DNA from: a virus
Direction: 5' to 3' (one strand)
IMG/VR virus record: IMGVR_UViG_3300009285_001589
Location: 1 to 28,196 of that record
DNA length: 28,196 nucleotides
Shown here: positions 6,896 to 20,446 of the stretch, piece after piece
Position numbering within the stretch: position 1 is the stretch's first letter
Layout: each line of letters starts with the position of its first letter
The notes under the pieces: generated by a model
Databases searched by the model: none
What the model saw: only the letters and a program-made list of their open reading frames with translations
Told to the model about the DNA's origin: nothing
Program-made: the position numbers and the translations under genes

Positions 6896-6897
6896 AT

Positions 6898-7074: not shown

Positions 7075-7075
7075 A

Positions 7076-7489
7076 TTAAGCTATTGTAAGTACGCCCGTT
7101 GAAGCATCAAAATTTAAAGTTAAAGTGTCTCCGATTACCATACTCAAAGCTGAACCGTAATCATAATATCCGATTAACTTATCTCCAGTTGAAGCATCGT
7201 CAAAGATATAAATATATCTGAAATCTGGCACAGTCCCCGAAGCTGTCAAAACTAAATCTGCTAAAACTAACTTATATGTTCCACTTGTTTGAGCAGAAGT
7301 TGATACTGTTAAAACCCTTGCAGAAAGGTTTGTATAAGAAATCTGGGTTAAGTCTGCTAACTCATCCCAACCTGCTGTATGAGCTGTGTTGGTTAGGGCT
7401 ATTGTTAATCCTGTTCCACCTAAATCTATTAACTTCTCTGCTAAATTTTCGACAAAACTATTTATTTTTGTTAGTTGAACGGTAGGCAT
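7076..7489 (-). CDS. Phage structural protein, beta-rich (137 aa)
   Basis: The sequence starts MPTVQLTKINSFVENLAEKL and ends GDTLTLNFDASTGVLTIA, with an internal FRYIYIFDD...LIGYYDYGSAL stretch. This pattern (N-terminal helix, 'ALTNTA' segment, then a strand-rich domain ending in a phage-typical FDASTGVLTIA) recurs in small structural proteins of many tailed phages whose exact role is usually unassigned. It lies between the connector candidate and tail genes, 6 bases after the former, so a tail or head-decoration role is likely. The resemblance is from memory of the family pattern, not a search. Confidence 0.6.
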   Translation of the reverse strand: MPTVQLTKINSFVENLAEKLIDLGGTGLTIALTNTAHTAGWDELADLTQISYTNLSARVLTVSTSAQTSGTYKLVLADLVLTASGTVPDFRYIYIFDDASTGDKLIGYYDYGSALSMVIGDTLTLNFDASTGVLTIA

Positions 7490-7495
7490 TTTTGC

Positions 7496-8215
7496 TTAAA
7501 TCCCATCCGTGTCCCTGGGTAAAATTCTATTACCAAAGTCACGGTCTCGGACTTCATTTAATTTTATTAAATCATTTTTCAATTCTACTATTTCGTTTCT
7601 TATTCCAGTTTTTCTGTCTTCCACTCCGTTAGACAAACAATAGTCATAGGCTGCTCCCAAAGATATAATTCTATGGTAGTCTCCTGAAAAACCTGGTTCT
7701 CTGTCTGTTGAGGTGGCGTTAAAAGCTAATATTTCTCTTGAAAGGAATAATTCTAAACCTTCTGTGGTTGCCACTAACGCTTGGTCTGGAGCTGGATATA
7801 AATATAAAGAAAAACCCCTGACATCATAATATTCAGGTATTCCTTTAGTTTCATAAAATTCCTCCAGTGCAGTTCCTCTAAGTTGAGATTGGTCTATTGG
7901 TTTTAAATGGCAATAGTTTCCATCAAGCTTTAAAACCTCAACCCTTTCTATTTCTTGAGTTTTTGTATCAAGAGAATAATCTTGTTGTCCGTCAATTAAA
8001 GTTGTAGTTCCTTTAGGAAGAGTAGTCCAATTTGAATCGTCATATTCCCAAGTTCCAGAGTTGGCTCTAATCCAAGAACTTGTTTTCCTGTACCAAGCAT
8101 TGGCACTTCTTATAAATTGGACAATAGGGAATTGAGAAGTGTCTGATATGCCTACTAATGTTAATGCATCGTGATAAAGAGAATTGGCTTTATCTGTTGT
8201 AGAATTTATTTTCAC
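7496..8215 (-). CDS. Head-tail connector / adaptor candidate (239 aa)
   Basis: A 239-residue protein starting at GTG (8215), preceded by AAGGG eight bases upstream, which supports this start. It has an N-terminal helical region (KANSLYHDALTLVGI), a segment describing residue patterns of phage adaptor proteins (LPKGTTTLIDGQQDYSL, LYLYPAPDQ), and a long C-terminal helix (EIVELKNDLIKLNEVRDRDF). The 'TLIDGQQDYSLD...IERVEVL' and 'LYLYPAPD' patterns occur in adaptor-like proteins that attach the tail to the portal. It is the first structural gene after the cargo cassette, 35 bases beyond it, so the cassette separates it from the capsid gene it would normally follow. Confidence 0.55.
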   Translation of the reverse strand: MKINSTTDKANSLYHDALTLVGISDTSQFPIVQFIRSANAWYRKTSSWIRANSGTWEYDDSNWTTLPKGTTTLIDGQQDYSLDTKTQEIERVEVLKLDGNYCHLKPIDQSQLRGTALEEFYETKGIPEYYDVRGFSLYLYPAPDQALVATTEGLELFLSREILAFNATSTDREPGFSGDYHRIISLGAAYDYCLSNGVEDRKTGIRNEIVELKNDLIKLNEVRDRDFGNRILPRDTDGI

Positions 8216-8250: not shown

Positions 8251-8916
8251 TTATTTTACTTTGTCAAGTTTTTCTTTTGCGTCCAATGCTATGTCTCTCA
8301 ATTTATTAAATGTCTGCCACATATCAAGCAAGTCAACTGTTGTCCAATGAGACACTAAATTATCCGTATCGCACCATACTGAATATCCCAACTTCTTTGC
8401 TCTCCTACAAAAGTTAAAATCCAATCCTCTCATTTTAATTCCTTCAGGGTCGTAATCATTTCTGAAAGGAAATGGAATATTTTCTAATACTCTCCTTGCT
8501 ATCATCATATTTCCACTTCCTATGCCGTCAACCTCAACGACCCCTTGGTTTAATGCTAAATCCTGAACATCATATTTATAGTCTTCCCTTTGTTTCATAG
8601 CAAAAGGAACTATCATTCTTTTTGAAAACCCAAAACACACAGCCCCAATAATATCTTTATCGTAGTCTGCCATATCCAAAACTCTTTCTGCGTTTTGCGG
8701 TATGCAATCTCCATCAAACATTAAAAGATAATCTGCATCAGTTTCTAAAAATCTTTTACATAAATCATTCCTATTGTATGAAATAGGTTTTTTGGCAGGA
8801 TATTCTATGGTAAGTTTGTATTTTCCCTGCCTTGAAAGTTTAAAAAGCAGGTCTGTCATTTCAACACGAATATCCCCCTGGTTTAGAACAGCCAACATTA
8901 TATGTTTAGTCTTCAT
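8251..8916 (-). CDS. GT-A (family 2-like) glycosyltransferase (221 aa)
   Basis: The sequence has a GT-A pattern: an N-terminal Rossmann-like strand (IMLAVLNQGDIRVEM), a YNRNDLCKRFLE helix, and a DGD motif at residues 68-70 (DYLLMFDGDCIP) that would bind the metal and sugar nucleotide. Later GSGNMMIARRVLE and FNFCRRAKKLGYSVWCD match the acceptor-side and 'D..FC.RA...G' elements common in phage and bacterial family 2 enzymes. It is the last gene of the cassette and overlaps the upstream nucleotidyltransferase by 11 bases. It probably transfers a hexose-type sugar to the glycan made by this cassette; donor and acceptor cannot be read from the sequence. Confidence 0.75.
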   Translation of the reverse strand: MKTKHIMLAVLNQGDIRVEMTDLLFKLSRQGKYKLTIEYPAKKPISYNRNDLCKRFLETDADYLLMFDGDCIPQNAERVLDMADYDKDIIGAVCFGFSKRMIVPFAMKQREDYKYDVQDLALNQGVVEVDGIGSGNMMIARRVLENIPFPFRNDYDPEGIKMRGLDFNFCRRAKKLGYSVWCDTDNLVSHWTTVDLLDMWQTFNKLRDIALDAKEKLDKVK

Positions 8917-9370
8917 ATTTTTTTATTAAAGCTGATGAACTTTGGATTTTTTCTCCTAATCCATCAATAATATTAATATTTAATTTGTCGCATATTTCTT
9001 TTTCAGGTATTTCACTATTAAATCTATCTCCGCCATTAGCAAATATCATTTCTCCGTTTAAATTGTTTTGTTTGTAAGCATTACAGAAATATTCTAAACT
9101 TTTGCAAACTGTCCTATCGTCATCAATACTCAAATAACAATATCCCACATCACTCAAAGCATTTATCACGTCCATTCTTTCCATTTCAGGAACAATTATC
9201 CTACCATATTTCAATAATTGCTGTTTATCATTATTAAGAATAACTACCAGCTCATCTCCAAGTTTTCTGGCTTTTCTAAAACATTCTATATGTCCTTTGT
9301 GAAGCCATAAAAAATATCCACTTACAAATACAATCTTATTTTTTTCTATACTACTAAATCTGTGATTCAT
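8906..9370 (-). CDS. Cytidylyltransferase-like nucleotidyltransferase (154 aa)
   Basis: A complete small nucleotidyltransferase of the HxGH superfamily: the strand-loop FVSGYFLWLHKGHIECF carries HKGH at residues 24-27, and the C-terminal QSSSALI (143-149) matches the ISSTxI-type motif that closes on the nucleotide. Relatives include glycerol-3-phosphate, heptose-1-phosphate and phosphoethanolamine cytidylyl- or adenylyltransferases. Substrate is not decidable. It overlaps the DegT-like aminotransferase upstream (17 bases) and the glycosyltransferase downstream (11 bases). It is the second such enzyme in the cassette, and the HxGH histidines are intact here, so either this one or the enzyme at 13186-13629 could activate the phosphonate. 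Confidence 0.75.
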   Translation of the reverse strand: MNHRFSSIEKNKIVFVSGYFLWLHKGHIECFRKARKLGDELVVILNNDKQQLLKYGRIIVPEMERMDVINALSDVGYCYLSIDDDRTVCKSLEYFCNAYKQNNLNGEMIFANGGDRFNSEIPEKEICDKLNINIIDGLGEKIQSSSALIKKYED

Positions 9371-10412
9371 AAAATTCTTTTATTTTTTCTGATATAAATT
9401 TAACTTGGTCTTCTGTTAGGTCTGTGAAAGTAGGAAGGTATAAACCGTGCCTTGACGCGTCTGAAGACATTGAACCCATACGTTCCTGTCTATACATTGG
9501 TTGGGAAGTCATTGGTTTAAAAAATAATCTTGTTTCAATTCCCTTCCCTTCTAAGTATTTTATAAGTTCTTCTCTGTCTTCCACTAAAATATCGAACATC
9601 CACAAAACATTTCTTTCTTTTGGCTTATATACTCCAGGAGTATTTTTAAGATATTTATTATACCATTCCTCTATCTGTTTTCTTTTTTCAATAAATTCTT
9701 CCAGTCTTTCTGTTTGAGCCAAAGCTACTGCTCCCTGCATATTAGTCATTCTAAAGTTATATCCAAGTTTTGGGTGTAAAAAAGTATGTCCAGGTGCAAA
9801 ACTCATACTCCTTAAATGCCTCATCTGCCAAGCCAAATTATCGTTATTTGTGATACATATCCCACCCTCTCCACTGGTAATGATTTTGTTAGCATATAAA
9901 GAGAAACAAGCAATGTCCCCTCTCACTGGCGTACTAATTGCTTCACAACTATCTTCAACTACTTTTAAATTATAATCTCTGGCTATTTCCAAAATCCTAT
10001 CCATATTACAAACCCTTCCATAAATATGAACTGGAATTATCACTTTGGTCTTTGGAGTGATAGCTTCTTCAATCTTATCTACATCAATACAAAGTCTGTC
10101 ATCACAATCCACAAAGACTGGCTTTGCCCCTAAATAACTAACTGCCCAAGCCGTTGCTATCATTGTAAAATCTGGAACTATAACTTCGTCTCCCTCTTTA
10201 ATTCCCAAAGAAGCTAAAGATAAAGTCAATGCAGTTGTACCAGAAGAACAAGCAACACCGAATTGTGCTTTGTGTTTTTCTGAAAATAAATTCTCAAATT
10301 GTTTTATATAATCTCCTTGAGAAGAAATCTCATTTTGCTCTAAGGCACTAAGAACATATTTCTTTTCAAGTTCTCCTATATTAGGTTTGGCTACTGGTAT
10401 TGTGTAAATCAT
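9354..10412 (-). CDS. DegT/DnrJ/EryC1/StrS aminotransferase, perosamine-synthase-like
   Basis: This 352-residue PLP enzyme matches sugar aminotransferases across its length: SSGTTAL (56-62) for phosphate binding, VVEDSCEA (151-158) with the PLP-ring aspartate D154, and SLYANKIITSGEGG (171-184) with the Schiff-base lysine K176. The NKIITSGEGG pattern and GYNFRMTNMQGA segment are typical of GDP-perosamine synthases. The upstream overlapping gene is a GDP-mannose 4,6-dehydratase, whose product GDP-4-keto-6-deoxymannose is the perosamine synthase substrate, so GDP-perosamine is the likely product. Alternative: another 4-amino sugar, or, less likely, the missing phosphonoacetaldehyde transaminase. 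It overlaps Gmd by 32 bases and the next nucleotidyltransferase by 17 bases. Confidence 0.85.
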   Translation of the reverse strand: MIYTIPVAKPNIGELEKKYVLSALEQNEISSQGDYIKQFENLFSEKHKAQFGVACSSGTTALTLSLASLGIKEGDEVIVPDFTMIATAWAVSYLGAKPVFVDCDDRLCIDVDKIEEAITPKTKVIIPVHIYGRVCNMDRILEIARDYNLKVVEDSCEAISTPVRGDIACFSLYANKIITSGEGGICITNNDNLAWQMRHLRSMSFAPGHTFLHPKLGYNFRMTNMQGAVALAQTERLEEFIEKRKQIEEWYNKYLKNTPGVYKPKERNVLWMFDILVEDREELIKYLEGKGIETRLFFKPMTSQPMYRQERMGSMSSDASRHGLYLPTFTDLTEDQVKFISEKIKEFYESQI

Positions 10413-11346
10413 AATCTACCATTATTTTTACTAATTCTTTAAATTTGACCTTTGGCTTCCATCCTAAAATTTTTTCTGCCTTTGAGGCATCTCCTAGTAA
10501 TTGTTCTGTTTCTGCTGGTCTAAAATATTTTGGGTCTATAACTACATAATCTTCCCAATTTAATTTTACAATTTTAAATGCTTCTTCCAGAAACTCCTTA
10601 ATAGAATGAGTTTCTCCTGTAGCTATTACATAATCATCTGATTTTTCCTGTTGCATCATAAGCCACATTGCCTCAACATAATCCCCTGCGTAACCCCAAT
10701 CCCTTTTTGCTTCTATGTTCCCCAAATGTATTTTATCTTGCTTCCCTTTTAAAATATCAGATATTCCTATTGTTATCTTTCTGGTAACAAAGTTCTTACC
10801 TCGCCTTTCAGACTCGTGGTTAAAAAGTATTCCACAGCAAATAAACATTCCATAAGCCTTTCTGTAAATATGGCACATTGTATGGGCAAACAGCTTAGCA
10901 GCAGAATAAGGGCTTTGTGGGTCAAGTTTAGTATCTTCATTTTGAGCCTTAGCACCTTTTTCCCCAGAAAACATTTCAGAAGTTGAAGCCTGATATATTT
11001 TTGTTTTTATACCAGTCATTCTAACTGCCTCTAAAAGATTAAGAACACTCACACCAGTTGCTTGGGCTGTATAACACGGGATTTCCCAAGATATTCCAAC
11101 TTGAGACATAGCACCCAAGTTATATATTTCGTCTGGTCTTACTTCTTTTAATATACGAACTAAACTTGAAAAATCTGTCAAGTCTCCATAATGTAAGGTC
11201 AACTCTCCAATATGGTCTATATTTTGCCTATCAAAAACTGCAGACCTCTGCACCATCCCGTGAACCTCATATCCTTTTTTAATTAAAAATTCTGATAGAT
11301 AACTACCATCCATTCCGTTTACTCCTGTAATAAATGCTATTGGCAT
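10381..11346 (-). CDS. gmd: GDP-mannose 4,6-dehydratase
   Basis: Converts GDP-mannose to GDP-4-keto-6-deoxymannose, the branch point to GDP-fucose, GDP-rhamnose and GDP-perosamine. The 321-residue sequence has the NADP-binding GVNGMDG (8-14), the catalytic T-S-E (STSEMF, 121-126), YSAAK with Y147 and K151, and the Gmd-specific NHESERRGKNFVTRKI block (176-191). Length is slightly below the usual 340-370 residues, mostly through shorter loops. It overlaps the glycosyltransferase upstream by 10 bases and the aminotransferase downstream by 32 bases. With the next gene it forms a two-step route to GDP-perosamine or a related amino-deoxysugar; no fucose synthase (Fcl) or Rmd gene follows. Confidence 0.93.
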   Translation of the reverse strand: MPIAFITGVNGMDGSYLSEFLIKKGYEVHGMVQRSAVFDRQNIDHIGELTLHYGDLTDFSSLVRILKEVRPDEIYNLGAMSQVGISWEIPCYTAQATGVSVLNLLEAVRMTGIKTKIYQASTSEMFSGEKGAKAQNEDTKLDPQSPYSAAKLFAHTMCHIYRKAYGMFICCGILFNHESERRGKNFVTRKITIGISDILKGKQDKIHLGNIEAKRDWGYAGDYVEAMWLMMQQEKSDDYVIATGETHSIKEFLEEAFKIVKLNWEDYVVIDPKYFRPAETEQLLGDASKAEKILGWKPKVKFKELVKIMVDYDLHNTSSQT

Positions 11347-12350
11347 AAATCTTCTAAAGTTTTAATAATAATAGGTTTTACATTATCCCAAGCAAAAGTA
11401 TTGGCAATCATATCAGCCTTTTTACTTTCTTCCGATATATCTTTATTCGCCCACTTATCAATGGCATCAGCTATTGCTTGTGGATTAACAAAGTTCATAT
11501 CTATTATTCTATTTTCTGGCGTAGTCTGAATTTGCTTCTTTGCTTCTGAAGGAAAAAACCATTCCTTTGGAAGCATCACATTAAATGGATACAGGTCTGT
11601 GGTTAAAACTGGCATACCACAAGACAATGCTTCCCAGATAGGTAAAGACAATGCTCCAAACATTTTAGGGTAAATCATAATATCTCCGTCTTTGAATAAT
11701 TCTGTCCTATCCTTTGCGTCTCCCAATCTCACCTCAACCCTTTTATCTTTTATTTCAGGTATTGCAACCTGTGAATGAATTATAAACTTGACATCTGATT
11801 TTACTAATGGTATTGCTGACAAAAGTGCAACTATACCATTTCTGCCCCCAACTCCCCCGTGCCCGTTGTTAAATATAAAGGTGTGGGCTTTTTCCCTTTG
11901 TTTGAATTTAAATACTTTTCTATCAATAGGGTTTTGAATATACTCTGACTTTGTCGGGTAGTATTTATAAATATCACGTTCCATCAAAGATGGGCAAAGA
12001 TACAGGTCTGGGTGTATTGGTGGGTTTTCTTCTGTCCATTCATACATTGGAATAAGCACAGTCTTTATTCCTCTTTCCTTTGCCATTGAAAATACATTCC
12101 AGTTATACGGAGTTTCAAATCCTATCACCACATCAATATCTTTTAAAAATAAATCAATCTGTTCTATTGTAGGAAAGTTTTCGCAGATAATCTGTTCAGG
12201 AAACCTTGTAACATTCTGATGTGGGCTGTCTGAAAGTATAGTTAGACATTTAGTTATCTCTGGCATATTTTTCCACCAGTCCAGAGAGAGGTTGGCAAGT
12301 CCACCCGCATCAACACGGGCAATCATTCCTATTTTTAGTTGAGATGGCAT
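11337..12350 (-). CDS. GT-B family 4-like glycosyltransferase (337 aa)
   Basis: A 337-residue GT-B enzyme. The N-terminal half starts KIGMIARVDAGGLANLSLDW, an acceptor-domain pattern with a glycine loop; the C-terminal half has NNGHGGVGGRNGIVALLSAI (a donor-domain first strand and helix), VEVRLGDAKDRTELFKDGDI and the family 4 signature region FGALSLPIWEALSCGMPVLT, where the glutamate and following loop contact the donor nucleotide sugar. It is probably cytoplasmic, using a nucleotide sugar such as GDP-mannose-derived donors from the next two genes. It overlaps its upstream methyltransferase by 16 bases and gmd by 10 bases. Donor and acceptor are unassigned. Confidence 0.8.
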   Translation of the reverse strand: MPSQLKIGMIARVDAGGLANLSLDWWKNMPEITKCLTILSDSPHQNVTRFPEQIICENFPTIEQIDLFLKDIDVVIGFETPYNWNVFSMAKERGIKTVLIPMYEWTEENPPIHPDLYLCPSLMERDIYKYYPTKSEYIQNPIDRKVFKFKQREKAHTFIFNNGHGGVGGRNGIVALLSAIPLVKSDVKFIIHSQVAIPEIKDKRVEVRLGDAKDRTELFKDGDIMIYPKMFGALSLPIWEALSCGMPVLTTDLYPFNVMLPKEWFFPSEAKKQIQTTPENRIIDMNFVNPQAIADAIDKWANKDISEESKKADMIANTFAWDNVKPIIIKTLEDLCQ

Positions 12351-12928
12351 ATTGCGATAAACTGCTCGGTGAGTGAAATACGCATTGTAGAGATTTCCAC
12401 TCTTCCGTATGGTTCTAATAAATTATAAATATCTTGTCTATCAAAACTCCATGAATGTTCCAAAGAAACTAATGGCTGTGTCACACCCTCTCCCTTCGGA
12501 GTAGAAAGAGAAAATACCCCCCCTGGCTTTACCACCCTCATTGCTTCTTTGATAAAATCTTCAGGGCTTTCTAAATGTTCTATAATTTCTCCTGCTACTG
12601 CATAATCAAAATATCCATCTTCAAATGGCAATTTCATTGCATCTCCTGCAATATACCTTACTTCGGGATACCTCTCCTGCAATTCTTCCATTACTTCTTT
12701 GCAATGGTCTAATCCCACAAATTCAGAATTAGGAAATTTCATCTTTAATTCTACTATCAAAGGAGAATTGAAAACACCTATATCAAGTAATTTTCCACCC
12801 TTAAAATAGGTTGCCATTTTGATAAACCTCGCCCAATCAATATAATGAAACTGTTTTTTCCACCTTTCGTTGAACTCCTTTACATCCAAATCTGGTGTAT
12901 TGGTATTACTTGGATTTAATCTTCTCAT
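12335..12928 (-). CDS. Class I SAM-dependent methyltransferase (197 aa)
   Basis: A Rossmann methyltransferase of the type 11/25 group: a modified motif I KLLDIGVFNSPLIVEL (from residue 46), acidic strand 2 SEFVGLDHCKEVM ending in the ribose-binding aspartate, GDAMKLPFEDGYFDYAVAGE (motifs II-III, 95-114) and the post-motif VVKPGGVFSLSTP. Motif I lacks the usual GxGxG, having GVFNSP instead, which is seen in some lipopolysaccharide-modifying relatives. The target is probably a sugar hydroxyl or the phosphonate/phosphate cap of the glycan. It overlaps GroES upstream (23 bases) and the glycosyltransferase downstream (16 bases). Confidence 0.8.
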   Translation of the reverse strand: MRRLNPSNTNTPDLDVKEFNERWKKQFHYIDWARFIKMATYFKGGKLLDIGVFNSPLIVELKMKFPNSEFVGLDHCKEVMEELQERYPEVRYIAGDAMKLPFEDGYFDYAVAGEIIEHLESPEDFIKEAMRVVKPGGVFSLSTPKGEGVTQPLVSLEHSWSFDRQDIYNLLEPYGRVEISTMRISLTEQFIAICHLN

Positions 12929-13211
12929 CTTTTAAAATAAGTAAAACGTGGACTTCTTTAGTTATTAAATATTCTTTTTCTTCTATTTTGACTGGCGTAT
13001 ATCGGCTGAAGTAAATTGTATCCCCCTCTTTGACTATTTGAGGTGCAATAGTGCCGTCTGCCCTCCTTATTCCGTGTCCCACAGAAACAACTTTGCCTTT
13101 GCCCTCTGCCCTGTCGTCTGTTTTAACATCCTGTGGCAGGAAAAGACCAGTTTTATTTTCCACAACTCTTTCTACTAATATATTATCAAGTACTGCTATT
13201 GGTTTTTGCAT
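12906..13211 (-). CDS. groES: GroES-like co-chaperonin (Cpn10)
   Basis: A 101-residue protein matching Cpn10 throughout: PIAVLDNILVERV at the N-terminus, a mobile loop with the hydrophobic GroEL-binding tripeptide (GLFLP, residues 22-26), EGKGKVVSVGHGIRRADG as the central strand and roof region, KEGDTIYFSRYTPVKI, and a C-terminal YLITKEVHVLLIL. Phage co-chaperonins (T4 gp31, RB49 CocO) swap for host GroES to fold capsid proteins. Its place inside the glycan cassette, overlapping a nucleotidyltransferase (26 bases) and a methyltransferase (23 bases), is unusual; it may serve the nearby MCP or a cassette enzyme. No GroEL gene is in the window, so it must work with the host chaperonin. Confidence 0.88.
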   Translation of the reverse strand: MQKPIAVLDNILVERVVENKTGLFLPQDVKTDDRAEGKGKVVSVGHGIRRADGTIAPQIVKEGDTIYFSRYTPVKIEEKEYLITKEVHVLLILKDEKIKSK

Positions 13212-13629
13212 TTTTTATTTTATTAATTATATTTGAACTCGAATATTCCTTTGGTAACGGAATATCTATTTTTACTAAATTGTATTTCTTAATTGCTTCT
13301 TCCTCTACTTTTTCCCAGCCGTCTCCTGAAGCTATTGCGTCTGGCTTGTATTTTTCTATATTCTCTGACGGGTCTAAACTATTTTGTGCAACTACCTTTC
13401 TATAGTTGGTCACATATTCCATTATTTCCTTTCGTCCTGCAAATGGCACGATTTCGTCTTTATATCCATTCAGTGCTTCGGCAGTAAGTAGTCCTATAAT
13501 AATTTTCTCGTATCTTTGACTAAGCCACTTTATGCACCGAATATGTCCCACGGTTAATAAGTTGCAGGTCATTGGAAAATAAACTGTTGAAATTGTTTTG
13601 TTGTCCTCCACAAGATTTATAAACTCCAT
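13186..13629 (-). CDS. Cytidylyltransferase-like enzyme of the phosphonate block
   Basis: A 147-residue nucleotidyltransferase fold: strand TISTVYFPMTCNLLTVGHIR with TVGH at residues 26-29 (the T-x-G-H variant is normal in, for example, phosphopantetheine adenylyltransferase), GLLTAEALNGYK, and the closing motif YSSSNIINKI (129-138). It directly follows the phosphonopyruvate decarboxylase halves, which suggests that it activates a phosphonate, for example CTP plus 2-aminoethylphosphonate to CMP-AEP as PntC does, for use by the LicD-like transferase upstream. Substrate is inferred from neighbours. The first 110 bases overlap the end of the decarboxylase beta gene in another frame; the first beta strand depends on this overlapping part, so a later start (M20) is unlikely. 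Confidence 0.7.
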   Translation of the reverse strand: MEFINLVEDNKTISTVYFPMTCNLLTVGHIRCIKWLSQRYEKIIIGLLTAEALNGYKDEIVPFAGRKEIMEYVTNYRKVVAQNSLDPSENIEKYKPDAIASGDGWEKVEEEAIKKYNLVKIDIPLPKEYSSSNIINKIKNAKTNSST

Positions 13630-13915
13630 TATTTAATATATAGACCTTTAAGTTTTTTAGTTTGTATTTGTTTATCGTAGCCAAACTTCCTAAATGCATT
13701 AATAGGCTACCTTCCCCGATTAAACAAATTACTTGTTTTTTTGTATTTATTGCATAACCTAACGCCACTCCCAATGCACAACCCATAGCACCTTTAATTT
13801 TTATGACTCTTTCTTCATCTGGCAAGTCATAGCAAATAGTTCCAAGCGAACCTACAATAATTGCATCTTTATTTTTGCTTAACAAATTCGTAATGAAACT
13901 CTTTTGTGTTTCCAT
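13520..13915 (-). CDS. ppd: Phosphonopyruvate decarboxylase, TPP-binding (PP) half, short
   Basis: The C-terminal half of a ThDP-dependent phosphonopyruvate decarboxylase, as its own gene: GAMGCALGVALGYAI (42-56), the metal/ThDP motif GEG (67-69) followed 25 residues later by NN (95-96), MHLGSLATINKYKLKNL, and GVYKSCGGQQ (97-106), which matches the GGQ segment of Ppd. The enzyme removes CO2 from phosphonopyruvate to give phosphonoacetaldehyde and drives the unfavourable PepM reaction. The protein stops about 25 residues after GGQ, whereas Ppd normally continues for roughly 70 or more, and this last part is overprinted by the next gene. The motif has Glu where the family usually has Asp (GDG). 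It overlaps the alpha half by 47 bases in a +1 frame. Confidence 0.8.
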   Translation of the reverse strand: METQKSFITNLLSKNKDAIIVGSLGTICYDLPDEERVIKIKGAMGCALGVALGYAINTKKQVICLIGEGSLLMHLGSLATINKYKLKNLKVYILNNGVYKSCGGQQNNFNSLFSNDLQLINRGTYSVHKVA

Positions 13916-14213
13916 AATTTTTTAACATACTTAATAATGAAGGCATAACACCAGTCGCCACATAGTGTTGACTTTCGCTTCTTCCAATACTTATAATTAA
14001 ATTAATTGGTATTGCTTCTGGTATAACTAAACTCGTTATCGGATTTAAAGCATTCATTACTCCATCAGCACTGATAGCCACCGTGGCTGGTTTTCCTGTC
14101 GCATAATAGTATCCTACAGCAATTCCTATTGCTTCTCCCTCGTCTGAAGGAACTACATATTTCTTTCTTCCAAGCCATTTTACTAATATCTTATCAGGTA
14201 ATGCTACTAACAT
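13869..14213 (-). CDS. ppd: Phosphonopyruvate decarboxylase, PYR half, short
   Basis: A 114-residue PYR domain: VPSDEGEAIGIAVGYYYATG (21-40) contains the NEG-type motif with E25, the glutamate that activates ThDP, and ISADGVMNALNPITSL (47-62) matches the NSG.GN..NP..SL block of Ppd and sulfopyruvate decarboxylase. Full-length relatives have about 20 more N-terminal residues and about 30 more at the C-terminus; both appear lost. The start ATG shares one base with the PepM stop codon (TAATG at 14213), so translation is probably coupled. A split PYR/PP arrangement is known from sulfopyruvate decarboxylase ComD/ComE; the adjacent PepM makes phosphonopyruvate the likely substrate. Confidence 0.8.
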   Translation of the reverse strand: MLVALPDKILVKWLGRKKYVVPSDEGEAIGIAVGYYYATGKPATVAISADGVMNALNPITSLVIPEAIPINLIISIGRSESQHYVATGVMPSLLSMLKNYGNTKEFHYEFVKQK

Positions 14214-15004
14214 TAATGTCCAACAATGTCAAAGACATCCTGCACAGAAGCCATCTCTACATCTTCTCCTGCAAGAAACTTTTGCATTGCTTTTAATGAT
14301 ACTCTTGTAAGCATATTTGCTTTTATTATTATATCAAAAGGATTTTCTTCTGGAAGCACATAGCTAGTTGGAACGGCAATTAAAGTAAGTTCTTTATTTA
14401 ATTTTCTTATTTCATTACCTACTTCCATTACTTCGGTGCAGTCTACCTTTTGTTTTGAATGAACCATTATTCCGTCTGCACCTGCTTCTACATAGGCTGC
14501 AGCCCTTAATATTGCCTCGTACTTTGAATGTTTTGCAATTAAACTTTCCAGTCTAGCAAATACTTGCATCTCTCCACAATTCTGTTTTGCTACTTTTATT
14601 TTCTGACAAAATATATCTACATCTTCCAACTGATGGTTAGCTTCCTCTAAAAGACTATTTTGTTTTGGATATTTTTTATCTTCCATTATTACAGCATAAG
14701 CCCCTGCTCTTGAAAACCAATCTATTATAAAAGGCAAATGTTCGATGCTTTCTCCAGTATCTATATCAACTATTATTAGTTTATTTGTCAACCTTCTCAA
14801 TTCTTCTACTAAATCAACTCTTTCTTTTAACGGCACTAATTCGTTATCTGGAAGCCCCTTTTGAGCTGAATGGCACAAACTTGAAACCCACAAACCATCA
14901 TAGTTTGATTTGTCTATAAGCTTAGCCATTAATCCGTTACTTGCTTCTAAAAATGTTTTCATAGACTTTGCTTGATTGAACATTTGGTCTTTGGTGCAGG
15001 TCAT
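14213..15004 (-). CDS. pepM: Phosphoenolpyruvate phosphomutase
   Basis: Rearranges PEP to phosphonopyruvate, forming the C-P bond; the entry step of nearly all phosphonate pathways. The diagnostic EDKxxxKxNS is present (EDKKYPKQNS, 108-117), separating it from isocitrate/methylisocitrate lyases. Other active-site positions are kept: SSL (41-43), D53 of the gating segment, VDIDTG with D80 and D82, R151 (ARLES) and H182 (VHSK). At 263 residues it is about 30 shorter than typical PepM. The ATG at 15004 is preceded by AGGGG at a good distance, so the 68-base overlap with the LicD-like gene is probably genuine. The next two genes encode the decarboxylase that pulls the reaction forward. Confidence 0.92.
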   Translation of the reverse strand: MTCTKDQMFNQAKSMKTFLEASNGLMAKLIDKSNYDGLWVSSLCHSAQKGLPDNELVPLKERVDLVEELRRLTNKLIIVDIDTGESIEHLPFIIDWFSRAGAYAVIMEDKKYPKQNSLLEEANHQLEDVDIFCQKIKVAKQNCGEMQVFARLESLIAKHSKYEAILRAAAYVEAGADGIMVHSKQKVDCTEVMEVGNEIRKLNKELTLIAVPTSYVLPEENPFDIIIKANMLTRVSLKAMQKFLAGEDVEMASVQDVFDIVGH

Positions 15005-15494
15005 ATTCTTCCCCTGGCTTAAACTCTCTACGCCAACCCTCTGAATATTTTAAAATCATCAACTCCTCTATATGATTTGGAATTTTAAATATCACATCTT
15101 TAACTTCCAAATCCTGCAAGTCATTAAAATACTTTTCATCAAACACCATTACCTTGTCCCATTGCGAAATAGCCCAAATCCTTTTGTCTTCGCATTTAAA
15201 GTAAAATGCAATATCAATCCAAGTGTCTTCGCAGTATATTTTATATCCCATAAGGCAACCTTTTTCTACTCTTGTTGAAATTTTATAATCTCTGCCTAGT
15301 ATCAACATAGCGTTGATTACTTTGTCTTGGTCTTCCCTTTTAACTCCAATATCAATGTCTGGGTCAGTTAAAAGAAAATCACCTTGACGATAAAAGCCCA
15401 AAAGTGTACCAAAATCCAACCAGTATTTTATACCTTCCATTTCCAAAATTTCCTTAACCTTGCATAGAAATTTAAATCTATTTAAGAGTTCCAT
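14937..15494 (-). CDS. LicD-family phosphotransferase (185 aa)
   Basis: A LicD/fukutin-like nucleotidyltransferase-fold protein: GIKYWLDFGTLLGFYRQGDF followed by TDPDIDIGV gives the family GTLLG (29-33) and D-x-D-x-D (D44, D46, D48) metal motif. LicD moves phosphocholine from CDP-choline onto glycans; relatives in phosphonate clusters are thought to move 2-aminoethylphosphonate from CMP-AEP. Because PepM, Ppd and a cytidylyltransferase-like gene follow at once, a phosphonate transfer is the likely job. I chose the ATG at 15494; an upstream in-frame ATG (15545) would only add residues inside the previous gene. It overlaps the glycosyltransferase upstream by 17 bases and PepM by 68. Confidence 0.82.
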   Translation of the reverse strand: MELLNRFKFLCKVKEILEMEGIKYWLDFGTLLGFYRQGDFLLTDPDIDIGVKREDQDKVINAMLILGRDYKISTRVEKGCLMGYKIYCEDTWIDIAFYFKCEDKRIWAISQWDKVMVFDEKYFNDLQDLEVKDVIFKIPNHIEELMILKYSEGWRREFKPGEEYDLHQRPNVQSSKVYENIFRSK

Positions 15495-16332
15495 AAAGTC
15501 TATCGCTAACTTTTTTAGCAAATTTATCTGGAGTAAAGTTTTCAATTACTCTATTATAACACTTTTCTACTTTGTCTTGAACAGCCTTTTCTTTGTAAGT
15601 TATCCACAGGTCTTTTATTTTAGTTTTGAAGTCTTCAAAGTCATCTCTTGAATAGTAAAATCCATCATCTCCCCACATTTCCTTTGTCCCAGGGTTGTCA
15701 GCAGATAGGGCAGGTTTCTTACAATAAAACGCCTCTGTGGCTGGAATAGTTACTCCACACTCTCTATCTGGCGTTACTAAAAATGAACAATTCTTGAGAG
15801 TATTTATATAGTCCTGCCTTGAATTATCTTCTGGGTGATAGCACTTGTATGGTATATCCAGTTCTTCACAAGCCTTACAAAACCAATCAGCTCTTTTGTT
15901 TTTATCACGCCTTGCACCCATCATCACATATCCGTAATCTTTCTTTTCTCCTTCCCATTCCCAAGGCATTATAAAAATGTAATGTGAAAAATCACTTTTA
16001 ATTCCAATGGCTTTTTCTGTTACTTTGCCCGTATCCAAATCTCCAGACCACACTTCTTTAGCTTCCTTCATCAGTTGTATGAAAAGTGGATAAGTTCCTT
16101 TTGTTTTATCTGTATAGTCATACCAATCCCAGTTATTTACTATCAAAGGAACAGTTGGATATTTCCTGTGAAGCATCATTGTAAAAACACTCATAGTCCT
16201 TTCAGTGGCAATTAATACATCGCAGTCTTCGGAACAATCATTAACTAAAACCTCGTGCCTTAATTTGATTAATTCAGGCACTACGTTTAGCATCCAGTTA
16301 TCCTCTACCATTACAAGTGCGATTTTGCTCAT
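15478..16332 (-). CDS. GT-B-like glycosyltransferase, copy 2 of a tandem pair (284 aa)
   Basis: A 284-residue protein paralogous to the gene just upstream: both share LRHEV.VN.C.E.CDV near the N-terminus, a NWDWYD motif, EVWS, a DYGY(I/V) segment, N(S)R.DY..T..N(C)SF, a carboxylate-containing 'TEAFYCKKPALSADN' donor-site region and DDFEDFK near the C-terminus. The C-terminal half resembles family 1/4 GT-B donor domains with a glutamate in ATEAFYCKKP. The ATG overlaps the previous stop as ATGA (16329-16332), typical of coupled translation. It probably adds one sugar of the cassette's glycan; the divergence from its twin suggests different donors or acceptors. Confidence 0.7.
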   Translation of the reverse strand: MSKIALVMVEDNWMLNVVPELIKLRHEVLVNDCSEDCDVLIATERTMSVFTMMLHRKYPTVPLIVNNWDWYDYTDKTKGTYPLFIQLMKEAKEVWSGDLDTGKVTEKAIGIKSDFSHYIFIMPWEWEGEKKDYGYVMMGARRDKNKRADWFCKACEELDIPYKCYHPEDNSRQDYINTLKNCSFLVTPDRECGVTIPATEAFYCKKPALSADNPGTKEMWGDDGFYYSRDDFEDFKTKIKDLWITYKEKAVQDKVEKCYNRVIENFTPDKFAKKVSDRLYGTLK

Positions 16333-17210
16333 ATAATTTCTTCCAACCTATTTGATATTGTTTTTGTCCACGGCTCTAATAAATACCTTTCACAGACTCT
16401 TTGATATGCTTTCTCTGCCCTGTCTTTTACTTCCTTACTCTTATAATTTTCCCAAAGCCACTTCATTTGTCTTTTAAAATCCTCAAAGTCATCTTTCTTA
16501 TAATAATTAGCAGTGTCTCCCCAAGTATCTTTAAAAGAATCACTGTCGGCTAAAAGAATAGGCTTATGGCAATATGCCGCTTCAATAGGAGTAACGCCAA
16601 CTCCCTCTTCTCGGCTCGCTAAAACTACAAATGAACTGTTTTGAACCGTCCTGACATAGTCTGACCTGCTATTTTCGTGAGGATGAGTTACTTTATATGG
16701 AACATCCAATTCTTCAGCAGACTTTTCAAACCATTCAAATCTTTTAGAAGGTGCATTTCTGGAAGATTGTAAAATATATCCATAATCTTTATTTTCTCCT
16801 TGCCATTCTCTTCCTAAAATAAAGCAATAAAACTTAAATGTAGTTTTTAGCCCCGTATCTTTTTCACACTTATCAGCCCACTCTTGGGTAGAACTCCACA
16901 CCTCTTTGCTTTCTCTCATTAACTTTTCAAATTCATCGTAAGCAGGCTGAAACCCAAACATTTCATTTCCCACAAACTTGCCGTCTTTTTTTAAAAAGTC
17001 ATACCAATCCCAGTTCCAAGTAATAAGTGGGATATTTGGGTATTTGGTTCTAAACTCTCTTGCCATTTGCCACTGGTTTCTATTCTCACAAATAATTACA
17101 TCACAACTTTCATCACAAGAATTAACCATTACTTCGTGGCGAAGCTGTCGCAATTCCTTGTAAAAATCATCCATATAGCTATTTGTCCCCCCGATGAATG
17201 AAATCCTCAT
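16329..17210 (-). CDS. GT-B-like glycosyltransferase, copy 1 of a tandem pair (293 aa)
   Basis: Paralogue of the following gene. It begins MRISFIGGTNSYMDDFYKEL; a TTG three codons upstream (17219) is possible, but the ATG at 17210 is preferred. Features: CDVIICENRNQW, ITWNWDWYDF, a linker VTHPHENSRSDYVRTVQNSS, then the donor-domain signature SREEGVGVTPIEAAYCHKPI with the usual EGxG..P.EA order of GT-B enzymes. The end overlaps the twin by 4 bases; the start overlaps the methyltransferase by 32 bases. The donor-site signature is better preserved in this copy than in the second, so this may be the ancestral form. Specific substrate unknown. Confidence 0.72.
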   Translation of the reverse strand: MRISFIGGTNSYMDDFYKELRQLRHEVMVNSCDESCDVIICENRNQWQMAREFRTKYPNIPLITWNWDWYDFLKKDGKFVGNEMFGFQPAYDEFEKLMRESKEVWSSTQEWADKCEKDTGLKTTFKFYCFILGREWQGENKDYGYILQSSRNAPSKRFEWFEKSAEELDVPYKVTHPHENSRSDYVRTVQNSSFVVLASREEGVGVTPIEAAYCHKPILLADSDSFKDTWGDTANYYKKDDFEDFKRQMKWLWENYKSKEVKDRAEKAYQRVCERYLLEPWTKTISNRLEEII

Positions 17211-17808
17211 TTGTTGCAACTATTTTAGTAATATATTTACCTTGTATTTTTTCTATTTCTTTAAACCCATATTTATGAAGTAACCCTTTTATCATTCCGT
17301 GAGAACAAACCATCATCTTGTGTTGTTCGTGCCAAAAAGGAAACCAGAAATCAATCGTTACTTGGTCGCCATCCCATCTCTTGCGGGTTATCCTTTTTAA
17401 CTTCCAATTAAAATCCCAACCACTTATCCTGACGTCATAATTCCAATAAGTGAAAATTAATCTGCCTTTGAGCATTTTAGATATATTGTAGAATGCCTTA
17501 CCTGGATTTTCTAAAAAGTTAAATACATCAAAGACCATTATGGCGTTGTCAAAATTTGAATTAGCAACATATTCCTCGATAGGCAGACAATTAGTAATAA
17601 CATTTTTACTTCTTGAAATTTCACACATTTCTTGCTGTGGCTCTATATTCCAGCACTCAAATCCCTTTTTATTAAGTGCTTCTGAAATTATTCCTGTCCC
17701 TCCACCTATATCAAGAACCGTTTTGCCTTTGAGATATTTAAGAAGAAATTCTATTTCTCCTTGACGATTTGAATAAAGCAAGTCATACTTTTTTGCGTTG
17801 AATTTCAT
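17179..17808 (-). CDS. Class I SAM-dependent methyltransferase (209 aa)
   Basis: A methyltransferase-domain protein with canonical motif I VLDIGGGTG (31-39), acidic second strand FECWNIEPQQEM, NAIMVFDVFNFLENPGKAFY as motif II/III, and GRLIFTYWNYDVR as the following strand. The C-terminal half (KRWDGDQVTIDFWFPFWHEQ) is beta-rich, as in small-molecule and sugar O- or N-methyltransferases that cap the substrate. It overlaps the Cys-rich 95-residue gene by 26 bases and the glycosyltransferase by 32. It probably methylates a sugar or a precursor made in the cassette; protein methylation cannot be excluded. Confidence 0.8.
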   Translation of the reverse strand: MKFNAKKYDLLYSNRQGEIEFLLKYLKGKTVLDIGGGTGIISEALNKKGFECWNIEPQQEMCEISRSKNVITNCLPIEEYVANSNFDNAIMVFDVFNFLENPGKAFYNISKMLKGRLIFTYWNYDVRISGWDFNWKLKRITRKRWDGDQVTIDFWFPFWHEQHKMMVCSHGMIKGLLHKYGFKEIEKIQGKYITKIVATNEDFIHRGDK

Positions 17809-18070
17809 TTGATTGATTTTTTAAATAACATGCTCCACAGACCTTTTGATAATCAAATTTTGTATTACCACACTTGCATTTAGTTTTTGAAACAGGCAAC
17901 CCTTCATTGAAAGTATGCACCAGCCCAGACCCTTCCCCGTTTCTAAATGATTCTGGTCTTTTTGCCATCTTTTTTAATTCATCACTTACTCCACCGTGCT
18001 TTTTGTTATGTTCAATACCACGATTAAGGTCTTGGTCTAATCCCCGCAAATTAGAGTTCTTCATTTTCAT
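17783..18070 (-). CDS. Small protein with C-terminal zinc-ribbon-like cysteines (95 aa)
   Basis: Family not recognised. The first 55 residues are basic and polar with short helices (KHGGVSDELKKMAKRPESFR); the C-terminal third has KCKCGNTKFDYQKVCGACYL, with C65-x-C67 and C78-x2-C81, likely a single zinc ribbon. It overlaps the glycosyltransferase upstream by 20 bases and the methyltransferase downstream by 26, so it belongs to the cassette operon. Zinc-ribbon proteins of this size often bind nucleic acid or scaffold enzyme partners. A regulator of the cassette or a small virion protein are both possible; nothing in the sequence decides it. Confidence 0.6.
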   Translation of the reverse strand: MKMKNSNLRGLDQDLNRGIEHNKKHGGVSDELKKMAKRPESFRNGEGSGLVHTFNEGLPVSKTKCKCGNTKFDYQKVCGACYLKNQSNEIQRKKV

Positions 18071-18929
18071 TAAAAACTATACTCAACATTGTTTCCAAAC
18101 GGTCTTCAAAAGTAGCAACTTCTAAAACCTTTTTCTGCCCTTCTGCTTGTATTGCTTTTCTTGCTTCTTCATTCTCTAAATAATAATCAATCGTTGCAAT
18201 AAGCTCTCTATATCCCTTATATCCAGCGAAATGAGTTCCTTCAATAAGTTCTGGTTTCAATCCATAACAATCAGGGTGAACTAAAAATCCGCCCAGACCC
18301 AATGTTAAGTAAATTCTTGAAGACCAGTAAAATTCATTTGTTGGAAAATCTGGTGCTACAATTATTTTTGCAGATTTGCATAAATCAGCCATATCTTGGT
18401 TAAACAAGTCATTAAACACTTTAAAATTCTTAAAGTGCTGTTTTAATGTAATAATAAAATCTTCTCTCTTTCCATAAAGACTTCCTGCAAAAGCAATATC
18501 GCACTCCAATTCTTTTCTAAATTTACCCTTATAAACAGTCCCCACACCTTCTTTTAAAGAATAAAGATTTGTAAATTTGTGTCTTCTTCTCCAAGTGTCA
18601 TCAACTAAAAAACCATAGTCAATATATTGAGCAATGGTTTCTATTTCTTTTTCCCTTTCGGGGTAAAGTCTAATAGGGTCAAAATACCACATTACTTTTT
18701 TGCAAGTAATATGATTTAGCAAAAGAATAAAATCCTGCAAAGAAAGATATGTTCCCACTCCGCCTTTATGGAATAAAAACATATCTGCCTTTATATTCTT
18801 TAACTGCTTATGGTCTCTTTCGTGGACTGGGATAACTTCGTGTCCTAGTTTTTCTAACGCCAACTTAATATCCTCTTCAACAAAATTTGAAGGGATATTT
18901 TGAAAGTTGGCAAAGTAAATTATCTTCAT
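18051..18929 (-). CDS. CgeB-like GT-B glycosyltransferase (292 aa)
   Basis: First gene of the cargo cassette, 88 bases after the capsid gene stop. The 292-residue sequence starts KIIYFANFQNIPSNFVEEDI, then a central ADMFLFHKGGVGTY and a donor domain with CDIAFAGSLYGKREDFI, SAKIIVAPDFP and YWSSRIYLTLGLGGFLVHPD. The S-R-x-Y/F-E/L-x-x-x-x-G-G-x-L-V pattern is typical of CgeB/DUF3880-type glycosyltransferases that occur in spore-coat, flagellar and phage glycosylation loci. No signal peptide is visible, so it is probably cytoplasmic. Position next to the MCP makes a virion protein an attractive acceptor, but that is inference. Confidence 0.7.
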   Translation of the reverse strand: MKIIYFANFQNIPSNFVEEDIKLALEKLGHEVIPVHERDHKQLKNIKADMFLFHKGGVGTYLSLQDFILLLNHITCKKVMWYFDPIRLYPEREKEIETIAQYIDYGFLVDDTWRRRHKFTNLYSLKEGVGTVYKGKFRKELECDIAFAGSLYGKREDFIITLKQHFKNFKVFNDLFNQDMADLCKSAKIIVAPDFPTNEFYWSSRIYLTLGLGGFLVHPDCYGLKPELIEGTHFAGYKGYRELIATIDYYLENEEARKAIQAEGQKKVLEVATFEDRLETMLSIVFNENEEL

Positions 18930-19017: not shown

Positions 19018-19818
19018 TTAGTAATGTGTGCTGTTAAGCTTCACACCCCAAGTTTTTTGTAGGATTGTATCTCCATACATCACGTCAGCCATTAATTTCT
19101 TTCTCAAGTCTTCTCCTCTTCCTACAGAGAAGTCTGGACCGAATGTTGCGAATGCTATTGCACCTGGGTGGACAATGGCATTACCCTCACCAGAGCCTGC
19201 TTCATTGGTAAGGTTATTAGTCAGAGTAATAGGCACTCCGTAAAGCATATCGTGCACTCCATAAGGAAGTGTTGCTCTTCCGAATTGAGAAGCATCGTAG
19301 TACTTCTGAATGCTCATTAAATCTTTCCAATAGGTTTTTGGTTTCAAGAAGATTCTGCATTCCTCTTTTGGAATGCTGTTTGAATCTAAAATACCAAAAG
19401 CCTCTTCAAGCTGAGTTGACATAAGTGCTAAAACAGAGCTTGAAACGCTTGCAGTTAAACTTTCAAAGTTTGCAAGAATAGCTTGCTCTACGTTTCTTCC
19501 GCACCTATAACCCAAATAACTTGCGTACTCATCTATCACTGCAGGTCTCTTCATTATTTCTCTCTCTGCGAATTTTGTAACTAAGACTGCTGCACCTTTC
19601 CAGGCGTTTACAGTCAAAGCTGTTTTGGTATCACCCAATCCAACTGCTGTTACAGCTCCAGTTGTTACAGAAATGTCTGAAACAGTGGAGTTTAATTCGT
19701 CAAAGTGAGGGATATTCACGATGTCGGCGTTAGCCACATCTGCTGAATAATCCTTGAAGAAATTAGCAGCGTATAGTCTCTCCCGAAAAAATCTTGACAC
19801 ACGTGGTGTCCAGAGTTC
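19018..19818 (-). CDS. Major capsid protein, exon 2
   Basis: Codes for residues 14-279 of the spliced protein, starting ELWTPRVSRFFRERLYAANF. Seen: an alternation of helices and strands (FFKDYSADVANADIVNIPHF, a beta segment with AVTAVGLGDTKTAL, a long helix EREIMKRPAVIDEYASYLGY, and the C-terminal GDTILQKTWGVKLNSTHY) typical of T7/P22-type HK97-fold capsid proteins. Exon 1 adds MTEVATKFDVFRP, giving the common ...F.P.ELW start of such proteins. It follows the scaffold-like gene, as usual. Two tandem TAA codons end it. The TTG at 19821 is not a real start because it lies in the intron. Confidence 0.88.
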   Translation of the reverse strand, partial: ELWTPRVSRFFRERLYAANFFKDYSADVANADIVNIPHFDELNSTVSDISVTTGAVTAVGLGDTKTALTVNAWKGAAVLVTKFAEREIMKRPAVIDEYASYLGYRCGRNVEQAILANFESLTASVSSSVLALMSTQLEEAFGILDSNSIPKEECRIFLKPKTYWKDLMSIQKYYDASQFGRATLPYGVHDMLYGVPITLTNNLTNEAGSGEGNAIVHPGAIAFATFGPDFSVGRGEDLRKKLMADVMYGDTILQKTWGVKLNSTHY

Positions 19819-20446
19819 CAATTTGTTATCTTACGGTTTCTATTCCCGTAAAGTTCAGACTATCACTTACCACCGCAACTTGGTGGCTTACTTTGTTTAG
19901 TCGTTCAGGCTGCACATTTGCCTCGCTTATTCAATCCTCTTATTTCTTGATAAAATTTTTCTCTAATAATTACCGTTTCGTCAGACAACTCTATATGTCT
20001 TCCATTATGATAATTACTGTTGTTCTTTACCACTTTATAAGATTTTGAATTAAAGGTTTTTAGAAATTCTTTTATTACTCCTGCTTGTGGTTTTTTAAGT
20101 TTCAGATAAGGATATATTTTTTCAATAAATGGTTTTACCAATGTGTTGCTGTGAATATCCCACACATAAGCATTTTTCCATCTATCATCTTTGAATTTTC
20201 TTGTTTCAAAGTATCCTCCAAAACTTTTATGTAACCACTCAATCATTATCTTATCGGTCATACATACCCTTATTCTGGCTTCGTACTTTCTGTCTTCTTT
20301 TTTTATTTCTAAACAACCTTCTCCGTCTATTAACCCTGCTACATAGGCAGCAGTTAATTTAGACATTACTGGCATTTTGCTTGCCCCTTGTTAGCCATTT
20401 CAGCTTCCAAGTCAATTAAAAGTAATTTTGTCCCAAACTGATTCTT
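19819..20446 (-). other. Group I self-splicing intron in the capsid gene
   Basis: A 628-base intron. Visible core pieces, on the minus strand: P1, exon GTCCTAA pairing with intron TTGGGAC with the U-G wobble at the splice site; P10, intron AGTTT with the first exon 2 bases GAACT; P3 candidate TTACTTT with AAAGTAA; P7 GACTA (19898-19902) with TAGTC (19858-19862), in the classic TGAACGACTA and GATAGTCTGAAC contexts; P8 CCACC/GGTGG (19870-19886); P9 TTACGG/CCGTAA (19831-19851). The terminal G is at 19819. The endonuclease ORF occupies the middle and ends inside the core, just before P7. Assignment of P4-P6 was not attempted. Confidence 0.87.
19905..20375 (-). CDS. LAGLIDADG homing endonuclease (single motif)
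   Basis: A 156-residue intron-encoded endonuclease. The first helix carries VAGLIDGEG (residues 12-20), the LAGLIDADG motif whose acidic residue binds metal; only one copy is seen, so the active form should be a homodimer. The middle part (RKYEARIRVCMTDKIMIEWL, GGYFETRKFKDDRWKNAYVW) forms the alternating strands of the DNA-binding saddle. It would cut intron-less MCP alleles and spread the intron to co-infecting phages. The start could be M1 (20375) or M4 (20366). The stop TGA lies in the intron core, so the ORF and catalytic RNA overlap. Expression may require the unspliced message. Confidence 0.9.
   Translation of the reverse strand: MPVMSKLTAAYVAGLIDGEGCLEIKKEDRKYEARIRVCMTDKIMIEWLHKSFGGYFETRKFKDDRWKNAYVWDIHSNTLVKPFIEKIYPYLKLKKPQAGVIKEFLKTFNSKSYKVVKNNSNYHNGRHIELSDETVIIREKFYQEIRGLNKRGKCAA

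Follow-up and report, generated by a model that had tools for sequence, protein, structure and literature searches.

A candidate compact phosphonate-tailoring pathway in the glycan block of an uncultivated tailed-phage lineage

Cells protect their surfaces with phosphonates, a costly class of compounds, and phages have so far entered the discussion solely as a motive for producing them (PMC8931226). Could a phage make and display them itself? This question is raised by the IMG/VR virus record IMGVR_UViG_3300009285_001589, a stretch of 28,196 bases (the window, meaning the whole of it), in which five overlapping minus-strand genes encode, in order, a LicD-family phosphotransferase (LicD), a phosphoenolpyruvate (PEP) mutase (PepM), the two halves of a phosphonopyruvate decarboxylase (Ppd-N and Ppd-C) and a cytidylyltransferase (NTP). 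We consider it reasonably probable that the window belongs to an uncultivated tailed-phage lineage encoding a compact phosphonate-tailoring pathway within its virion glycosylation block. We further propose, tentatively and stopping a little short of calling it probable, that the lineage makes carbon–phosphorus (C-P) bonds de novo using a miniaturised, virus-specific set (a stand-alone PepM, a split mini-Ppd, a shortened Fe-containing alcohol dehydrogenase (Fe-ADH) and a stand-alone cytidylyltransferase), and covers its own virions in glycans that bear 2-hydroxyethylphosphonate (HEP). Were this so, the lineage would provide the first phosphonate made by a phage, as well as a phosphonoglycoprotein capsid.

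A phosphonate cassette among phage structural genes

The original prediction described five consecutive overlapping genes of these families, and all five were found where it had placed them on the minus strand, with Pfam and NCBIfam in agreement:

14937..15494, minus strand: LicD-family phosphotransferase, 185 aa, proposed phosphonate transferase from CMP-phosphonate to glycan; PF04991, 7.8e-8
14213..14962, minus strand: PEP mutase (PepM), stand-alone, ~249 aa, predicted to convert PEP to phosphonopyruvate; PF13714 (PEP_mutase), 3.1e-35; TIGR02320, 1.8e-63
13869..14213, minus strand: Ppd-N, PYR-domain subunit, 114 aa; TPP_enzyme_N, 4.9e-6; TIGR03297, 9.5e-15
13520..13915, minus strand: Ppd-C, PP-domain subunit, 131 aa; TPP_enzyme_C, 5.2e-17; TIGR03297, 9.9e-20
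13186..13629, minus strand: Fom1-type cytidylyltransferase (NTP), proposed CTP:2-hydroxyethylphosphonate cytidylyltransferase; PF01467 (CTP_transf_like), 1.2e-7

The NCBIfam scores of the cassette proteins all lie below the NCBI equivalog cut-off, since these viral proteins are short and divergent. LicD probably starts at the ATG at 15494, as the original prediction implied, and PepM probably at the ATG near 14962, where its relatives start, rather than at 15004.

Read along the minus strand, the window presents the terminase large subunit (TerL), a putative portal, the major capsid protein (MCP), a glycan block, an SU10-like adaptor and tail-type genes. The block runs from 18929 down to 8251 and is larger than the five cassette genes, which lie in its middle. 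Its borders are the MCP and the adaptor, in line with the earlier placement of the cassette between capsid and connector genes:

23116..24441, minus strand: terminase large subunit; phrog_2, 1.7e-38; PF03237, PF17289
21363..23102, minus strand: putative portal protein, named from its position and conservation in the lineage; in relatives, the profile matches lie between TerL and MCP
19018..19821, minus strand: major capsid protein, upstream border of the block; phrog_267 major head protein, 5.2e-9
7496..8215, minus strand: SU10-like adaptor, downstream border of the block; PF24175, 5.4e-8

The portal has no match among annotated phages, and the matches of TerL are all distant (Thermus phages, ~27%).

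We then used scans of viral contigs to find relatives, onto which the profiles were mapped. The order TerL, portal, MCP, block with LicD, PepM, Ppd-N, Ppd-C and NTP, adaptor was found in 11 IMG/VR contigs: the window, G001, G002, G004, G005 (L020), G007 (L026), G008 (L027), G009 (L029), G011 (L036), G012 (L037) and G015 (L130), the ten besides the window coming from ten different metagenomes. Only the end of TerL lies on the G004 contig. By "lineage" we mean 13 contigs, namely these 11 together with G003, a near copy of G002 that is cut before the adaptor, and G010 (L034), which carries the cassette and has no capsid genes in view. Some of the sequences behind the MCP profile are lineage members assigned by position, which makes the more distant MCP calls (~20% identity to the window) weaker than the others. 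When the window is compared with its nearest relative, dN is 0.2-0.4 while synonymous sites are almost saturated, which indicates that the cassette genes are under purifying selection.

The gene families, their order and their synteny are thus direct observations, and they bear on whether the window is an artefact joining phage to host DNA. Such a chimera is scarcely conceivable: nothing speaks for it but the oddity of the genes, whereas the identical arrangement recurs in 11 contigs, GC content and skew are continuous along the window, and none of 80 cellular PepM loci carries a phage hallmark or a split Ppd. We therefore rejected an assembly join, and with it one of the refutations that the original prediction had itself envisaged. 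The survey it had called for, of viral contigs with PepM near terminase or MCP genes, places PepM in the MCP-to-adaptor interval of all 11.

Formation of the carbon–phosphorus bond

Among NCBIfam families, the window PepM scores highest with the phosphoenolpyruvate mutase family TIGR02320 (214 bits; phosphonopyruvate hydrolase reaches 106 and PrpB 65). The loop motif EDKx5NS separates PepM from the rest of PF13714 (Rice et al., PMC6697681). It reads EDKKYPKQNS in the window, mutase Asn included, and is kept in 19/19 viral PepMs of our tree and in 80/80 cellular PepMs; at the same site the phosphonopyruvate hydrolase 2dua has EDKTFPKDTS, and 4iqd likewise does not carry EDKx5NS. The catalytic and Mg positions, which we take to be D58, D85, D87, E114, R159 and H190 in the Mytilus enzyme, are all present in the window when aligned with 1m1b and across the viruses. 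This bears out the earlier statement that every active-site residue checked was in place, though a nearby change of EAHNG to EASNG is found in the window only.

The tree combined 19 viral PepMs, 42 of the 80 cellular PepMs and four solved enzymes. Thirteen viral PepMs, comprising L039, L040 and those lineage members that the set includes, cluster with an SH-aLRT support of 86 and inner nodes of 97-99, and the hydrolase and the CPEP-like enzyme fall outside all viral and cellular PepMs (support 99), the placement of the long-branched solved enzymes being unsure. The window PepM shares 53-75% identity with its phage-lineage relatives and at most 43% with cellular PepM; in a genome scan, virus-lineage patterns alone returned no relative, and a wider alignment returned the cellular set. 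By motif and tree position, the window PepM is thus predicted to be a true mutase. A PrpB-like lyase and a phosphonopyruvate hydrolase were ruled out by profile scores, motif and tree, and the phylogeny asked of this protein by the original prediction came out on the mutase side.

A split phosphonopyruvate decarboxylase

As first predicted, two genes with an overlap of 47 nt encode the two halves of Ppd, divided between the PYR and PP folds. TIGR03297 is the best NCBIfam match of both, and Ppd-C matches it in 15/15 relatives. The catalytic Glu of Ppd-N (DEGEA) is invariant in the alignment, and an AlphaFold model of Ppd-N (pLDDT 91) matches AzcBC and the split Ppd RhiEF (9iz4) in the PDB. Every one of the 13 lineage contigs has the split form, whereas the 67 cellular loci with a detected Ppd all encode a single chain; the viral halves sum to 239-286 aa, compared with a median of 375 aa for those cellular chains.

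A frameshift artefact was ruled out as the origin of the split: contigs throughout the lineage show it with similar overlaps, and in L040 a gene separates the two halves. A wholly new feature was likewise ruled out, RhiEF and ComDE being known (PMC12141560). We also observed split Ppd, Fe-ADH and a PepM-cytidylyltransferase fusion amid sugar and glycosyltransferase genes in contigs of other virus groups (L021, L042 and L043, 45 to 145 kb).

Reduction, activation and transfer

An Fe-ADH is encoded in 11 of the 13 lineage contigs, in 8 of them directly between Ppd-C and NTP. All 15 aligned viral copies, five of which come from other virus groups, match the phosphonate-cluster family TIGR03405 (best E 1.1e-52). 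The lineage proteins are 161-287 aa long, against at least 326 aa in the 27 cellular loci carrying one. A phosphonoacetaldehyde reductase of this kind (phpC) yields HEP (PMC9381506).

The sole PDB sequence match of NTP is 5x3d, the cytidylyltransferase domain of Fom1 (9.9e-10), and its family profile likewise matches 5x3d (4.6e-25) better than ethanolamine-phosphate cytidylyltransferase (2.4e-15). The (H/T)xGH signature reads TVGH in the window, and the tree places the viral group beside PepM-fused cytidylyltransferases with moderate support. The product of Fom1 is CMP-HEP (PMC6697681). From its pathway neighbours we infer that HEP is also the substrate of the phage NTP.

LicD scores 33.1 bits with PF04991 (gathering cut-off 22.6), carries the acidic metal motif DxDxDxG as DPDIDIG and matches fukutin-related protein (6kaj, 3.8e-6). 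In L034 a cytidylyltransferase and LicD are naturally fused in one 362-aa protein (10342-11430), and NTP is fused to PepM in L021, L041, L042, L043 and 78 of the 80 cellular loci; these two kinds of fusion link the steps of PepM, CMP activation and LicD.

No aminoethylphosphonate transaminase of the PhnW type was recognised in the lineage phages. The DegT gene of the window was considered for this role and ruled out, given its match to DegT sugar aminotransferases (5e-99) and its position beside a GDP-mannose dehydratase. Because relatives carry Fe-ADH, NTP is nearest to Fom1 and no PhnW was recognised, we propose HEP over 2-aminoethylphosphonate (AEP) or choline. The original prediction had likened the pair of NTP and LicD to CDP-choline or CMP-AEP decoration; its nucleotidyltransferase/LicD logic fits, and the analogy itself gives way to HEP. 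The donor is likely CMP-HEP, transferred by LicD, the HEP product resting on the relatives and on family knowledge.

A proposed route and its target

In the scheme that we propose, PepM would convert PEP to phosphonopyruvate, the two-subunit Ppd would convert this to phosphonoacetaldehyde, Fe-ADH would reduce the aldehyde to HEP and the Fom1-type cytidylyltransferase would turn HEP into CMP-HEP. LicD would then place HEP onto a glycan built in the cytosol by the neighbouring glycosyltransferases, most likely carried by the capsid or another virion protein. The window phage may obtain the reduction step from its host or from an unseen part of its genome, or may have lost it. Substrate, acceptor and enzyme activities in this scheme are those suggested by family and genomic position.

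By a simple hydropathy scan, none of the proteins encoded in the virus blocks is polytopic, whereas of the 58 cellular PepM loci spanning 12 kb or more, 41 encode a polytopic membrane protein. The sugar genes of the virus blocks encode glycosyltransferases, methyltransferases and nucleotide-sugar enzymes (in the window, the GDP-mannose dehydratase and DegT). Since polytopic proteins are missing and the block lies beside the MCP, we favour as target a virion protein, glycosylated in the cytosol, over the host envelope. Of the two purposes first suggested, virion adsorption and masking of the infected cell, the virion is thereby favoured and the host surface less so.

In G004 (L015), a NeuB-like synthase, a CMP-sialate-type cytidylyltransferase and a DUF4910/M28 protein lie beside the cassette (8795-11308); similar genes were noted by eye in L020, L026, L027, L037 and L130. 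The G004 genes suggest a nonulosonate glycan in related phages.

Weighing the alternatives

Several observations weigh against the proposed pathway, some of them in the window itself. A six-frame search of its 28 kb found no Fe-ADH, and G015 also has none. The TPP/Mg motif of the PP subunit, GDG...NN, reads GEG...NN in the window Ppd-C, with Glu for the Asp of the GD found in the other 14 of the 15 aligned sequences, and the window PepM has Ser for the near-invariant His in EAHNG and Met for the His in ANH, the latter change being common to L020. Elsewhere, the Fe-ADHs of G001 and G002 (161-168 aa) are about half the normal length, and the Fe-ADH AlphaFold model matches known Fe-ADHs only in part (TM ~0.35), with the D and two His ligands kept. 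For Ppd-C, sulfopyruvate decarboxylase beta scores nearly as well (68 vs 71 bits). Finally, the sister contig L022 (G006, 13,208 bases) keeps NTP and LicD while PepM, Ppd and Fe-ADH are all missing, so that its NTP and LicD may act on another substrate. Because of the missing Fe-ADH, the GEG motif and the PepM His changes, the window is a poor example of the whole pathway: either another source supplies its reductase, or this branch is being lost. The earlier view that the steps up to PepM and Ppd are firm is right for the lineage and overstated for this phage. A decaying or host-dependent phosphonate branch, with NTP and LicD using host-made HEP or another phospho-alcohol, would account for the missing Fe-ADH and the GEG motif, for the somewhat greater divergence from outgroups of the PepM and Ppd of the window compared with those of G002, and for the gene content of L022. 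We nevertheless consider this somewhat unlikely, as all reading frames in the window are intact, synonymous sites are near-saturated, PepM is as conserved as MCP (74% vs 75% identity to G002), the contig covers only part of the genome and, in G001, several kilobases separate the Fe-ADH from the other cassette genes.

The cassette might instead serve another end. Bacterial sets of PepM, nucleotidyltransferase and LicD tailor cell surfaces (PMC6697681), and LicD occurs in 14 of the 80 cellular PepM loci, as would suit a cassette whose target is the surface of the infected cell (its O-antigen, teichoic acid or capsule), decorated so as to exclude superinfection or to mask the cell. We judge such a target unlikely, since the virus blocks lack a flippase, a polymerase or any other polytopic protein, in contrast to the cellular loci. 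Moreover, in 11 contigs the block lies between MCP and adaptor amid late structural genes, and is therefore probably expressed late. An endpoint in AEP, or in another group derived from phosphonoacetaldehyde, is improbable: the surface phosphonate of bacteria is usually AEP (PMC6697681) and the window does encode an aminotransferase, but this is of the DegT sugar type, the conserved extra enzyme is Fe-ADH, and NTP is of the Fom1 type, whereas the type characterised for AEP is LicC/PntC (PMC6697681).

Relation to known systems

The individual enzymes are known; what is new is their genomic setting and compact form. Fom1 of fosfomycin biosynthesis, a PepM with an N-terminal HEP cytidylyltransferase, shares both catalytic domains with the phage set, whereas in the phage they are separate and their product is proposed to be transferred by LicD rather than passed on to an antibiotic. 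RhiEF of rhizocticin biosynthesis (Bacillus subtilis ATCC6633; PMC12141560) shows the same PYR/PP subunit split and, as noted, its structure is matched by the Ppd-N model; the phage subunits are shorter (114 + 131 aa), their genes overlap and their context would be decoration instead of an antibiotic. The bacterial Pnt surface pathways (PMC6697681) likewise combine PepM, nucleotidyl activation, a LicD-like transferase and glycan genes, but those characterised activate AEP through the LicC-like PntC (PF12804), whereas the phages have a PF01467 protein, Fe-ADH and no membrane machinery. Ocean producers of HEP and methylphosphonate (PMC9381506; PMC8931226) follow a similar PepM-Ppd-PhpC logic to polysaccharide-bound HEP, yet their genes are cellular, and Ppd is single-chain in the cellular loci examined here; the sole role given to phage in PMC8931226 is that of a hypothesised enemy against which phosphonates protect.

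Among mobile elements, the glycosyltransferases of mycobacteriophages Che8 and Rita decorate capsid proteins, as proposed here, although the text of PMC11256854 that cites them reports no phosphonate pathway. A Borg of Methanoperedens (PMC12660748) carries an extrachromosomal PepM/cytidylyltransferase with glycoconjugate genes, but as a fused protein and not between tailed-phage structural genes. Only three of 50,697 annotated phage records match the window PepM. Two are faecal scaffolds that carry no annotation, with PepMs that the tree places among those of Firmicutes; the third is the cultured Vibrio phage Va2 (MW073017; L032), with an annotated PEP mutase and TPP enzyme. The Va2 proteins differ from the phage set in that the PepM-like one (25.7% identity, 434 aa) has the motif EDKx6NS, the Ppd-like one is single-chain, and both lie near ribonucleotide reductase genes with no LicD or cytidylyltransferase annotated nearby. 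Their genes occupy 1203-2303 and 6004-7308 (Ppd-like TPP protein; distant PepM-like protein). The literature searched, which left out most subscription journals, yielded no report of phosphonate biosynthesis by a phage.

If a phage does make and display phosphonates, virus particles become C-P producers, and a phosphatase-resistant decoration may affect virion adsorption, stability or recognition. As the pathway is short and cytosolic, the effect of such a decoration on the virion would be directly accessible in a laboratory host.

Other genes of the block

Besides the cassette, the block encodes glycosyltransferases, methyltransferases, a GDP-mannose dehydratase-like enzyme, a DegT aminotransferase and a second nucleotidyltransferase:

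18051..18929, minus strand: glycosyltransferase, directly downstream of the capsid gene; PF13524, 1.3e-12
17179..17808, minus strand: S-adenosylmethionine (SAM) methyltransferase; PF13489, 2.4e-14
16329..17219, minus strand: glycosyltransferase group 1, resembling its neighbour at 15478..16332; PF00534, 3.3e-12
15478..16332, minus strand: glycosyltransferase group 1; PF00534, 8.8e-8; conserved in G002 and L022
12906..13211, minus strand: GroES-like co-chaperonin within the block; PF00166, 8.3e-14
12335..12928, minus strand: SAM methyltransferase; PF08241, 3.9e-18
11337..12350, minus strand: glycosyltransferase; PF13692, 7.1e-7
10381..11346, minus strand: GDP-mannose 4,6-dehydratase-like nucleotide-sugar enzyme; PF16363, 1.6e-123
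9354..10412, minus strand: DegT/DnrJ sugar aminotransferase, not PhnW-type; PF01041, 5e-99
8906..9370, minus strand: second cytidylyltransferase-like protein, distant from the Fom1-type one in the tree; PF01467, 2.4e-8
8251..8916, minus strand: glycosyltransferase, last gene of the block; phrog_12406, 4.9e-9; weak Anp1 match

The GroES-like gene (12906-13211) lies mid-block in the window, and G002 has none at the same place. L020 and L027 likewise have a second cytidylyltransferase-like gene, which there adjoins the adaptor. Directly upstream of the capsid gene, at 19905-20375, lies a homing-endonuclease-like gene (phrog_5046 HNH; Pfam LAGLIDADG_1).

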